Below, piece by piece: positions 18,818 to 22,092 of a DNA stretch of 64,000 nt. The notes below the pieces were generated by a model. That model saw nothing but the letters and a program-made list of their open reading frames with translations. It ran no database searches and was not told the origin of the DNA. The position numbers were made by a program, and so were the translations under genes. Within the stretch, counting starts at the first letter, position 1. Every line of letters begins with the position of its first letter. Source of the DNA: Planctomycetota bacterium (GTDB lineage: Bacteria > Planctomycetota > Phycisphaerae > Phycisphaerales > UBA5793); the NCBI GenBank assembly GCA_963205185.1, contig CAUJHZ010000007.1, forward strand, positions 124,001 through 188,000, written 5' to 3'.

Positions 18818-18898
18818 GTCGGCGAATTCTCATCGGGAATCTGAACCCGTTCGCGCGGAGCCGTGTTGACCGGCGCGCCGCGCGTGCGATCCTTGCGC

Positions 18899-19858
18899 AT
18901 GATTCAAAGAACCGGCGTTGCAGTGATCATGGCCCTGTCGCTCCTGGCGGGTTGCAAGGGCTCGGGCGATCGAATGGTGCGGCCGCTGCCCGATCCGGCC
19001 GCGCCGCTCGCGGACGTCAATGTGCACGAACTGCATCTCTTCAACGGCATGAACGGCTCGCCGATGCAGTGGGAGGACCTCGTCCGGGCGGCGAGCGAGG
19101 CCGATGTCGTGCTCATCGGCGAGAGGCACGGCCATCCCATCGGGCTGGCGACGGCGGCTCGCCTGTGGGAGCAGGTGGCAGCGGCGCGGCCCGATGCGGC
19201 GCTCAGCCTCGAATTCTTCGAGCGCGATGAACAGGTGGCGCTGGATGACTTCCTCACGGGAGTGACTGCCGACGAACCGGCGTTCTGGCGAGCCGCCGGC
19301 CGGAGTGCTTCGAATTATCCGCCCGGCCACCGCGCCATGGTCGAAACGGCCAGGGCCAATGGCCAACCCGTCATTGCCGCGAATGCGCCACGCCGGTACG
19401 TCACGAAAGCGCGCGTCGACGGCTTCGATTCGCTGCGCCAACTCAGCGAAGAGCAGCAGCGGTTGTTCGTCATTCCCGAATCGCTCACGGGCGGCCGGTA
19501 CCGCGAGAAGTTTTTTGAGATGATGAGCGACCACAGCGAGGGCGAGCCGAACCCGGATGCGCCGCCGGTCGATGGCGAGGGCTTCTTCCGCGCGCAGAAC
19601 ATGTGGGACGCCACGATGGCGGACTCGATTCTCCAAGCCATCGCCCAGGGGCGGCATCCGGTCGTGCACGTCGTCGGGCAGTTTCATGCGGACTACTCAG
19701 GCGGCACGGTGTCGCGCATCGCCGGGCAGCGCAGTGACGTCCTCGTGTGGACGATCTCAATGGTCGACGACTGGTCAGAGACGCTGCGCCAGGAGGACGA
19801 AGGCCGCGCCGACTGCGTGATCTACGTCGGGCCGGACCCGGAGAGTCGGATGCGGTAA
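18899..19858 (+). CDS. ChaN-family lipoprotein (putative haem-binding)
   Basis: A 319-residue lipoprotein of the ChaN/PhuW family, within the EreA/Tiki-like superfamily. The signal peptide MIQRTGVAVIMALSLLAGC ends in a clean lipobox (LLAGC). The mature part shows ADVVLIGERHGHPIGL (family GExHxxP), SLEFFERDEQ, and the C-terminal HVVGQFHADYSGG with the histidines typical of the family. ChaN proteins bind haem and have been linked to iron uptake; that role is inferred here. A longer GTG start at 18863 is possible, but ATG 18899 gives a proper signal peptide. It lies 81 bp after lipA on the same strand with no iron-uptake genes nearby. Confidence 0.85.
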   Translation: MIQRTGVAVIMALSLLAGCKGSGDRMVRPLPDPAAPLADVNVHELHLFNGMNGSPMQWEDLVRAASEADVVLIGERHGHPIGLATAARLWEQVAAARPDAALSLEFFERDEQVALDDFLTGVTADEPAFWRAAGRSASNYPPGHRAMVETARANGQPVIAANAPRRYVTKARVDGFDSLRQLSEEQQRLFVIPESLTGGRYREKFFEMMSDHSEGEPNPDAPPVDGEGFFRAQNMWDATMADSILQAIAQGRHPVVHVVGQFHADYSGGTVSRIAGQRSDVLVWTISMVDDWSETLRQEDEGRADCVIYVGPDPESRMR

Positions 19859-19860
19859 GC

Positions 19861-20051
19861 CTACGGCTCTGAGTTCAGATCAACTTGCGTGAGAAGAGCA
19901 TCCAATCTCTCGATAACGCCAAGTACGGGCGCCCATCGCTTGAGATATGCTACATCCAGATCCTGACCGCACGTCAGCGCCACCCCGAGAGCATCTCGCG
20001 CCTGCTGCTCTGAATTGGCGCTGGACGCCCATTCGCCTGCGGACCGTTCAT
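19861..20051 (-). pseudogene. Remnant of a nucleotidyltransferase-like gene (C-terminal fragment)
   Basis: Reading the minus strand from about 20054 down to a TAG at 19861-19863 gives a protein-like fragment ending in ARDALGVALTCGQDLDVAY, followed by LKRWAPVLGVIERLDALLTQ and a short tail. From memory, this resembles the C-terminus of DUF6036/AbiEii-like nucleotidyltransferases (RDI-x-GVL...LDLDYLRRWA). An ATG at 20051 overlaps the stop of the upstream gene (ATGA), as in a coupled pair, but it opens a different frame that stops after 27 codons. I infer a deletion or frameshift that removed the N-terminal catalytic part. No start is available for the protein-like frame. The similarity is recalled, not checked. 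Confidence 0.4.
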
Positions 20052-20320
20052 ATGGCGATGTCCACGCCCGGATAGACGCGCCGGAACAGCGCTTCGCCCC
20101 ACCAGATTCGGTTTCTCGCCATGCGGACCTGCGCTGGCGTGTACTCGGGGTGCCGGTCCCGGATTCCCGCCTCAGTGGTGGTCTGGAGCTGTTCGATCAG
20201 ATCGAACGTCAGCCGCGCGCGGCCCTGGATTCCCAAGCGACGCAGCGCCTCGACTTCAGCGCGAAACGCATCGCGTGATGTGTCAGCGGGAATGTACGAC
20301 TGGCGCGGCGTGTTGCTCAT
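20048..20320 (-). CDS. Small hypothetical protein, probable partner of a lost nucleotidyltransferase
   Basis: A 90-residue basic, helical protein with the pattern AGIRDRHPEYTPAQVRMARN followed by GEALFRRVYPG near the C-terminus. I recall many small bacterial proteins of this pattern (AGIRxRHPEYxxxxVRxA...PG) encoded just upstream of nucleotidyltransferase-like genes in planctomycetes and cyanobacteria, in arrangements that look like toxin-antitoxin pairs of unproved function. Here its TGA overlaps an ATG of the next frame (ATGA at 20048-20051), but that next gene is decayed. Codon use matches the surroundings. Function unknown; the module is probably dead or reduced to this half. Confidence 0.6.
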   Translation of the reverse strand: MSNTPRQSYIPADTSRDAFRAEVEALRRLGIQGRARLTFDLIEQLQTTTEAGIRDRHPEYTPAQVRMARNRIWWGEALFRRVYPGVDIAI

Positions 20321-20418: not shown

Positions 20419-21933
20419 TTACTGCTCAAATCGGATCCCCTGGGCCAGCGGCAGCTCACCCCCCCAGTTGATCGTGCACGTCTGGCGGCGCATGTAGGCC
20501 TTCCACGCGTCCGAGCCTGATTCGCGGCCGCCGCCGGTGTCCTTTTCGCCGCCGAAAGCGCCCCCGATTTCGGCGCCGCTGGTTCCGATATTGACGTTCG
20601 CGATGCCGCAGTCGGAGCCGGCGTGGCTGAGAAAGCGTTCGGCCCGCCGAACGGAGTCGGTGAAAATGGCGCTGCTCAGCCCCTGGTCCACTCCGTTTTG
20701 CTCAGTAATTGCCGTCTCCAGATCATCGAACTCGATGAGATACAGCATGGGTGCGAATGTTTCCTCATGCACGATCGGCATTGAGGATGTGGCGCGGATG
20801 AGGGTCGGCTCGACGAAATGGCCGGGGCGCTCGATGCGCTTGCCGCCGAAGAGCACTTCGCCGCCTTGCGCACACGCCTGCTCCACGGCGTTCATCATTG
20901 CCTCCGCGGCCTGGGCGTGAATCATGGGCCCCACGAGTGTGAGCGGATCGAGCGGATCGCCGATGCGCGGCAGGATGGTCTCGTAGGCGGCGATGAGTCG
21001 GCGGATGACCTCCTCGGCCACGCCGCGCTGCACAAACAGCCGCCGGGTGGTGGTGCAGCGCTGCCCGGTTGTGCCAACCGCCCCGAAAACCACCGCGCGG
21101 ATCGCAAGATCAAGATCGGCGTCGTCGCAGATGATCAGCGCGTTGTTGCCGCCAAGTTCGAGCAGCGTGCGCCCCAGCCGCGATGCCACCACCTGGCCAA
21201 CGTGGCGACCCATACGACACGAACCGGTGGCGGAGATCAGCGGCAAGCGCTTATCGCGGATCATGGCGTCGCCGACCTGCTCGTCGGTTCCGATGATCAG
21301 TTCGAAGACGCCCTCGAGGTCGTGCGCGCGCATGACGGCTTCGACAGTTTCGTGCAGGGCAATTGCCGTCAGCGGAGTGAGCAGCGACGGTTTCCAGATC
21401 ATCGTGTCGCCGCACACGGCGGCGACCATGGCGTTCCACGCCCACACCGCCGCCGGAAAGTTGAACGCGGTGATGATCCCGATCGGGCCCAGCGGATGCC
21501 ACTGTTCGTACATGCGGTGCTGCGGCCGCTCGGAGTGTGTCGTCATGCCGTAGAGTTGGCGCGACAAGCCCACGGCGAAGTCGCAGATGTCGATGCACTC
21601 CTGGATCTCGCCGATGCCTTCGGCCCTGATTTTGCCCATTTCCAGTGCAATCAGTTCACCCAGCGGCTCGACCTTTTCACGGATCGCCACGCCGATCTGC
21701 CGCACGATTTCGCCGCGCTTCGGCGCCGGCACGAGTCGCCACTTGCGAAAGCGGTCGGCAGCGCTGAGCACCGCGGCGTCATAGTTGACGCGATCGGACA
21801 GCCGCACCCACGCGATCGGCTCGGCCGTGCTGGGATTCTCCGAGGGGATCCACTGGGCGCCTTCCGGGCGGGAGGTGGAAACGAGCGGGTGCGAGTCGAG
21901 TCGAAGGGCCGAGAGCAGTCGGGAGGCGGTCAT
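20419..21933 (-). CDS. Aldehyde dehydrogenase, ALDH7 (alpha-aminoadipic semialdehyde dehydrogenase) type
   Basis: An NAD(P)-dependent aldehyde dehydrogenase of 504 residues that oxidises an aldehyde to a carboxylate; ALDH7 members act on alpha-aminoadipic semialdehyde in lysine breakdown. Motifs in order: IGIITAFNFPAAVWAWN and MIWKPS in the cofactor domain, the general-base Glu in TLLELGGNN, the nucleophile Cys in GTTGQRCTTTRRLF, and ETFAPMLYLIEF. The GQRCTT signature and FNFPAAVWAWN favour ALDH7 over other classes. The frame is open 42 codons further upstream (to 22059), but ATG 21933 matches the usual beginning of the family. It stands alone, divergent from the DUF1579 lipoprotein gene, so the pathway cannot be read from its neighbours. 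Confidence 0.88.
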   Translation of the reverse strand: MTASRLLSALRLDSHPLVSTSRPEGAQWIPSENPSTAEPIAWVRLSDRVNYDAAVLSAADRFRKWRLVPAPKRGEIVRQIGVAIREKVEPLGELIALEMGKIRAEGIGEIQECIDICDFAVGLSRQLYGMTTHSERPQHRMYEQWHPLGPIGIITAFNFPAAVWAWNAMVAAVCGDTMIWKPSLLTPLTAIALHETVEAVMRAHDLEGVFELIIGTDEQVGDAMIRDKRLPLISATGSCRMGRHVGQVVASRLGRTLLELGGNNALIICDDADLDLAIRAVVFGAVGTTGQRCTTTRRLFVQRGVAEEVIRRLIAAYETILPRIGDPLDPLTLVGPMIHAQAAEAMMNAVEQACAQGGEVLFGGKRIERPGHFVEPTLIRATSSMPIVHEETFAPMLYLIEFDDLETAITEQNGVDQGLSSAIFTDSVRRAERFLSHAGSDCGIANVNIGTSGAEIGGAFGGEKDTGGGRESGSDAWKAYMRRQTCTINWGGELPLAQGIRFEQ

Positions 21934-22092
21934 GGGGTAGTTGTAGCCGGCCGCTGGCCGCAGTTCTGAATCGGGCGAAGCGAACTTGCCAAAGGCCCCC
22001 CACCCGGCAAAGATATCCGAACAAACACCGATCGACGCCGGGGTGTTGCCCGGCTCCAACTCGATCGGGTGATCAACTGCAGGAGAGACGTT

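Follow-up and report, generated by a model that had tools for sequence, protein, structure and literature searches.

A small open reading frame overlapping the start of a ruined second gene raises the question of what the pair once was, which half has survived and whether the same loss has happened elsewhere. The locus lies in a 64,000-nucleotide stretch of a planctomycete genome (G000), referred to here as the window. A preliminary description, which took it for a two-gene module in decay whose nucleotidyltransferase-like partner is broken, is borne out by an enzyme remnant, by a deletion and by an intact pair in the congener G002. The retained half of the module is the antitoxin, and most of the toxin gene has been deleted. 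On comparative grounds we consider it highly probable (about 0.88) that the locus is a decayed MenAT1-like toxin–antitoxin pair whose antitoxin was kept.

Organization of the locus

The small gene is open over its full length, as claimed, and its stop codon carries the ATGA overlap that should open the second gene (Table 1). The frame expected there is lost, as had also been described, since the ATG frame stops after 25 codons, and only about the first 4 of these match the intact toxin. Lying in another frame is the C-terminal fragment with the LDVAYLKRWA-type end, correctly reported as present and longer than had been stated. The remnant frame reads EWASSANSEQQARDALGVALTCGQDLDVAYLKRWAPVLGV and on, and its stop falls just before the end of the ChaN gene. 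This neighbour of the slot is conserved at the congener loci L005, L006, L007 and L046, and the aldehyde dehydrogenase on the other side is conserved in four congeners.

Table 1. Features of the locus, in window coordinates
Feature	Position	Strand	Basis or remark
Intact 90-aa small protein, MenA1/Rv0078B-like antitoxin	20048..20320	-	Congener homologues, family profiles
Broken toxin-gene start	19974..20051	-	ATG in antitoxin stop (ATGA, 20051-20048), 25 codons, stop
C-terminal MenT1-like nucleotidyltransferase remnant	19861..20034	-	57 codons + stop, out of frame with the ATG
Deletion junction, approximate	20034..20038	-	~394 bp missing relative to the intact G002 copy
ChaN/Tiki-family haem-binding gene, flank	18863..19858	+	PF04187, 7.2e-45
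Aldehyde dehydrogenase gene, flank	20419..22059	-	PF00171, 2.1e-129

An intact pair in a congener and the extent of the deletion

Occupying the same slot in G002 is a 100-aa small protein followed by a 192-aa nucleotidyltransferase, the antitoxin gene lying directly upstream of the toxin gene with a GTGA overlap in place of the ATGA of the window. The N-terminal part for which a check of close strains had been suggested is present there in a complete enzyme. The window small protein is similar to its counterparts in G002 (E = 9.4e-34, 69% identity over the match) and G004 (E = 7.0e-32, 63% identity over the match). The fragment resembles a nucleotidyltransferase above chance, matching residues 135–188 of the G002 enzyme (E = 3.4e-8) and positions 134–185 of the enzyme-family profile (3.6e-7), and in a codon alignment the remnant corresponds to residues 138–192 of the G002 enzyme. 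Assuming no other insertions or deletions, ~394 bp encoding roughly residues 6 to 137 are missing from the window, and this deletion accounts for the lost frame. Removed with it are the GS motif, T39, D41, D43 and K136, leaving the equivalent of D151; with the core and four of the five named catalytic residues gone, the window copy can therefore yield no working enzyme.

The partner enzymes are MenT1-like nucleotidyltransferases

An alignment of 21 enzymes of the partner family (A3) has S27, T39, D41, D43, K136 and D151 invariant in all 21 members. When its profile was compared with the PDB, the best match was MenT1 (8an4, 2.7e-13), whose T39, D41, D43, K137 and D152 fall on invariant columns; these catalytic residues are present in the intact relatives, and all but the last are deleted from the window copy. 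Two labels offered for the enzyme are not the most fitting: the intact G002 protein stays below the Pfam gathering cut-offs of both AbiEii (PF08843, 18.6 bits against 22.5; presumably the same family as DUF1814) and DUF6036 (PF19502, 12.5 bits against 23.6), the window fragment has no match to DUF6036, and the family profile finds MenT1 before anything else.

MenT1 is reported to add nucleotides to tRNA acceptor stems, and MenA1 to bind asymmetrically across two MenT1 protomers and to induce autophosphorylation of T39 (PMC10435456, PMC11375011). The conserved catalytic residues given for MenT1 are T39, D41, K137 and D152, with D43 a likely metal ligand; substitutions D41A, K137A and D152A abolish toxicity, whereas T39A does not (PMC10435456). 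An earlier guess that the module was a toxin–antitoxin or RNA-modifying one fits this homology, and the suggestion that such modules are without known function gives way to MenA1–MenT1 as the closest characterised relative.

The small proteins are related to MenA1

The window small protein was aligned with 20 relatives (A2, 21 members), and a wider antitoxin set comprises 32 sequences (A4). Pfam family PF18993, ‘Rv0078B-related antitoxin’ (MenA1), is matched by 14 of the 21 A2 members with an E-value of 0.1 or below (best 2.4e-10), and with the A4 profile the MenA1 chain 8an5_C, from the crystal structure of MenAT1, is recovered at 0.0026, in third place of the PDB list below two TPR-like designed proteins. 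With A2 as the query, 8an5_C is absent from the PDB matches up to E 10, and the window protein by itself has no Pfam match even at that threshold, so the homology to MenA1/Rv0078B holds at family level and the link rests on the relatives of the window protein. By eye on the A4–MenA1 match, and assuming a numbering offset of one residue, only two of the four MenA1 interface residues L12, L14, V19 and R27 map to hydrophobic residues of the window protein (L37, F39).

Used alone, the window protein and the fragments gave nothing usable in Pfam, NCBIfam or PADLOC, the weak matches to DUF7151, DUF3926 and SoFic being taken as chance; for the 21 small proteins NCBIfam returned nothing but stray weak matches. 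We discounted the TPR-like designed proteins and the hyaluronidases of the PDB lists, whose similarity was put down to helices or short motifs. At E up to 0.1 the 21 small proteins match seven Pfam families, none of them a HEPN family, which does not fit an MNT–HEPN pair. Run over 151 genomes, PF18993 has a match at 0.01 in 33 and over the cut-off in 10, compared with 0 of 14 control genomes; it missed the copies of the genus and gave weak matches inside long unrelated frames, and A2 was therefore used for the census. Two distant loci in Schlesneria drafts, seen in a contig scan, were left out of the analysis.

States of the slot across the genus

Among the five genomes compared (G000, the window genome, to G004), one genus provides a natural series at a single site: an intact pair in G002, the small protein in G004, the small protein with an enzyme remnant in G000, ~35 C-terminal codons of the small protein in G003, and an empty slot in G001 with ~22 bp between the two neighbours. 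A search of the G004 slot for a toxin remnant found no trace of the enzyme. In an unrooted FastTree tree of the two neighbour genes, G000 and G003 are split from the rest and G002 groups with G004; if the intact state of G002 is ancestral, the enzyme was therefore lost at least twice.

The place of the lost toxin in the G004 slot (L006:1225-1491) holds a ~136-bp self-complementary repeat, also found at G000:C7:99024-99171 and 202938-203083, outside the window, and with 20 to 52 matches per genome in the five congeners, some of which are both strands of one place. The segment L006:1240-1400 folds better than 200 of 200 shuffles (z -4.0), and no Rfam family is matched by L005–L007 at gathering scores. 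The repeat resembles a palindromic element, mobile or REP-like, that occurs throughout the genus.

Elsewhere in the window genome, a second MenA1-like antitoxin frame (contig C37, L004:1468-1985) overlaps a toxin frame whose similarity is lost after about profile position 57–59. The antitoxin profile thus finds two open loci in G000 and the enzyme profile two broken pieces only, with no further enzyme match at E 0.001 among the best 22 of 39 candidates (genome 97% complete). Intact pairs, which it had been proposed to look for in the same genome, were not found, both loci having a broken enzyme, and G000 is likely to carry two antitoxins and no toxin of the MenT1-like family. By eye, the L004 pair adjoins a prepilin-like frame on the other strand.

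Census in the order

The A2 profile has 34 matches in 151 genomes of the order (E up to 1e-6), and judged by the enzyme match 20 of these are intact pairs. Five have an open antitoxin with a visibly broken enzyme (G000:C7, G000:C37, G093:C51, G082:C3 and G044:C18), and five have no recognised enzyme: G004:C26, G140:C15, G100:C110 (with only ~330 bp to the contig end), G012:C116 (at a contig start, the antitoxin N-terminus being doubtful) and G032:C1:1476203. The other four were placed in none of these classes (G060:C1:982296, G070:C2, G044:C44 and G138:C149). The enzyme side was counted above 160 bits, weaker rows belonging to wider families, and 20 of these 22 enzymes are members of intact pairs; the G122 enzyme has a diverged small frame upstream (by eye), and that of G125, with no antitoxin match, carries two in-frame stops.

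Census in the phylum and modes of decay

Across 392 genomes of the phylum the antitoxin has a match at 1e-5 in at least 102, counted among up to 14 best antitoxin and up to 8 best enzyme candidates per genome, so that these totals are lower bounds. Pairs of this kind had been called common in planctomycetes, and in this sample they are. From it, the antitoxin rows with E no higher than 9.9e-9, 109 in all, were paired by coordinates with 104 enzyme rows, which placed 69 of the antitoxin matches -15 to +135 nt (between profile ends) upstream of an enzyme match of the sample and left 40 unpaired. Sixty-two of the 69 pairs were called intact from coordinates, not base by base; the seven flagged for stops or short coverage comprise four with a broken enzyme (G448, G253, G442 and G395:C159) and three that are intact. 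Of the 40 unpaired antitoxin loci, 37 were inspected by local search, usually with ~0.4 kb upstream and 1.1 kb downstream, and the other three (two of G000 and one of G012) are those described above.

Intact-looking pairs make up 67 of the 109 (two in reversed order), and 16 are open antitoxins beside a visibly broken enzyme. A further 20 have no recognised enzyme, including L146 and G012, whose N-termini are doubtful, and L149, which has an enzyme-like tail by eye. The antitoxin itself is broken in four (L142, L143, L160 and L164), none of them beside an intact enzyme, and two lie at a contig edge (L139, L155).

On the enzyme side, 35 of the 104 rows are unpaired. An antitoxin adjoins 15 of these, weaker than the cut-off or on the other side, and one is a remnant (L133). 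Inspection of the remaining 19 loci revealed a match to the antitoxin in 13 (E up to 0.05); at L187 the pair is reversed and its enzyme broken, and L186 has an antitoxin-like frame downstream (by eye). Beside the intact-looking enzymes of L177, L179, L181 and L185 (4 of 104) no antitoxin was recognised; these could have lost their antitoxin, use another one or not be toxins, and they count against reading the pattern as a strict rule. Stops were flagged in enzyme rows L173, L174 and G353:C259.

Counted once each, the loci of both samples at which an open antitoxin accompanies a visibly broken enzyme number 19: five come from the order, two of which (those of G000) appear again in the phylum list, and the phylum adds 14. 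A visibly broken antitoxin beside an intact enzyme was seen in neither sample. A one-sided sign test on 15 of the 19 loci gives 3e-5, or 0.002 if the enzyme is about twice the target, and serves as a guide only: antitoxin remnants, being short, escape detection more easily than those of the enzyme, genomes that are related do not count as independent observations, a single-base break in a draft may be an artefact, and several remnants were recognised on weak matches or by eye (L135, L140, L133 and L163).

The lesions take several forms. Profile positions 138–185 are left in G450, 156–185 in G082 and, with a stop, 155–186 in G497:C4; G395:C66 retains 1–42 and G165 retains 3–36; both ends remain in G379:C20 (1–39 and 157–184) and in G460, where 1–44 are joined in frame to 159–186. 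In G359 the antitoxin reads, by eye, into the apparent last residues of the lost enzyme. Large enzyme lesions that spare the antitoxin and remove catalytic residues are as expected if only antitoxin-sparing breaks survive.

Constraint on the retained antitoxin

The Nei–Gojobori dN/dS of the small frame is 0.29 for G000–G002, 0.29 for G000–G004 and 0.27 for G002–G004, with differences at the three codon positions of 18/23/50, 18/24/53 and 12/6/20, respectively; for the neighbours it is 0.13–0.23 (ChaN) and 0.06–0.11 (dehydrogenase). This ratio and the third-position bias indicate that, for most of the period after the lineages diverged, the small frame was evolving as protein-coding sequence. 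The ratio dates no toxin loss, and that in the window genome may be recent, given a dN/dS of 0.33 for the enzyme fragment (bootstrap range 0.13–0.70). With G000 as outgroup, six amino-acid changes of the antitoxin fall to the toxin-less G004 and two to G002 (2 unresolved, p = 0.29), compared with 9 and 8 in ChaN (17 unresolved), a hint of relaxation in G004 that is not significant.

Proposed course of decay and alternative explanations

The sequences show the family relationships, the intact pair of the congener, the loss of DNA in the window copy, the recurrence of this outcome at other loci and the lack of an intact partner enzyme among the candidates scored elsewhere in the genome; the biochemistry of the pair is drawn from its M. 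tuberculosis homologues. The intact form, represented by G002, has overlapping genes for a small antitoxin and a toxin of the nucleotidyltransferase type. Homology to MenAT1 suggests a toxin that would extend tRNA acceptor ends by added nucleotides and halt translation, and an antitoxin that would bind this toxin and trigger phosphorylation of its active-site T39. In the window genome an internal deletion took out most of the toxin's catalytic core and put the rest out of frame; the antitoxin gene remained open. The toxin probably died first, because the reverse order would be expected to harm the cell.

A faulty draft could mimic such decay, as the assembly consists of 76 contigs and frame breaks in drafts can be errors, but the lesion is a deletion of ~394 bp and not a one-base shift, the second locus of the same genome is broken differently and deletions of a similar kind occur in related genomes. 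An error of assembly or sequencing is the least probable explanation. Hardly more credible is that the small protein has an enzyme-independent function of its own and the enzyme is a dispensable neighbour. The 20 of 109 small proteins without a recognised enzyme would suit this, yet 69 of the 104 enzymes are paired, all but four intact-looking ones of the other 35 have the small gene nearby or are remnants, and the known relative MenA1 is reported to be an antitoxin (PMC10435456).

A rival possibility is that the orphaned antitoxin is more than a leftover and that selection keeps it as a stand-alone shield against MenT-like toxins brought in by phages or mobile elements, an anti-addiction role that a chromosomal antitoxin, CcdA, is reported to have been shown to play (PMC7354431). 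Antitoxin-only loci are frequent, counting both those without a recognised enzyme and those beside a broken one (20 and 16 of 109), the frame is open in G000 and G004, separate toxin losses if the G002 state is ancestral, and the antitoxin dN/dS is consistent with retention. The excess of changes in G004, however, hints at relaxation and not selection, and the sister genome G003 has lost most of its antitoxin, which leaves such a shield doubtful. We advance as no firmer than a conjecture the wider idea that, in planctomycete relatives of the window genome, repeated loss of the toxin core by deletion has left a large standing reserve of MenA1-like antitoxins surviving their tRNA-modifying toxins, at least some of these orphans being selected as general protection against MenT-type toxins of mobile elements. 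Orphan antitoxins are known elsewhere, and the case for selective keeping of those found here is weak.

Comparison with known systems

MenAT1 of M. tuberculosis (MenA1 = Rv0078B, MenT1 = Rv0078A) and the module have in common the gene order, with the short antitoxin gene first and the nucleotidyltransferase toxin gene downstream, an antitoxin of family PF18993 and the toxin residues T39, D41, D43, K137 and D152, matched in the intact relatives of the window copy. Unlike MenAT1, the window toxin is mostly deleted, and the antitoxins of the genus are longer (90–100 aa compared with 68 in MenA1), end in a G..LFR.VYPG tail (by eye) and have weak similarity to MenA1. Of 21 menA1 genes reported in PMC10435456, 15 lie upstream of a menT-like gene. 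The toxins of AbiE (AbiEi/AbiEii) and MenAT3/4 belong to the same broad nucleotidyltransferase superfamily, but the antitoxins MenA4 and AbiEi are described as having a winged-helix domain and a further domain (PMC10435456), and the intact G002 enzyme, as noted above, stays below the AbiEii cut-off.

Orphan antitoxins are also reported to be abundant in Klebsiella pneumoniae, where the readings offered are degraded pairs or anti-addiction (PMC7192599). That account concerns many toxin families in one species complex, whereas here one MenAT1-like family is spread across a phylum and toxin remnants are often recognisable. Among the papers searched, none names both Rv0078B and planctomycetes. With these comparisons a common gene pair of the phylum gains a name, MenAT1-like, and a testable mechanism, and because the same direction of decay recurs across the phylum sample, which half goes first and how useful the survivor is become measurable for the MenAT1 family.

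Variant architectures

Two further arrangements were seen. At L136:626-838, behind an open antitoxin, an in-frame internal deletion leaves a possible mini-enzyme (positions 1–44 plus 159–186) with a repeated DID-like motif at the joint. The reversed order, enzyme first, occurs at no fewer than 13 loci (L156, L157, L161, L171, L173–L176, L180, L183, L187, L188 and G326:C304), whose antitoxins mostly score low on the profile and perhaps form a separate subfamily.
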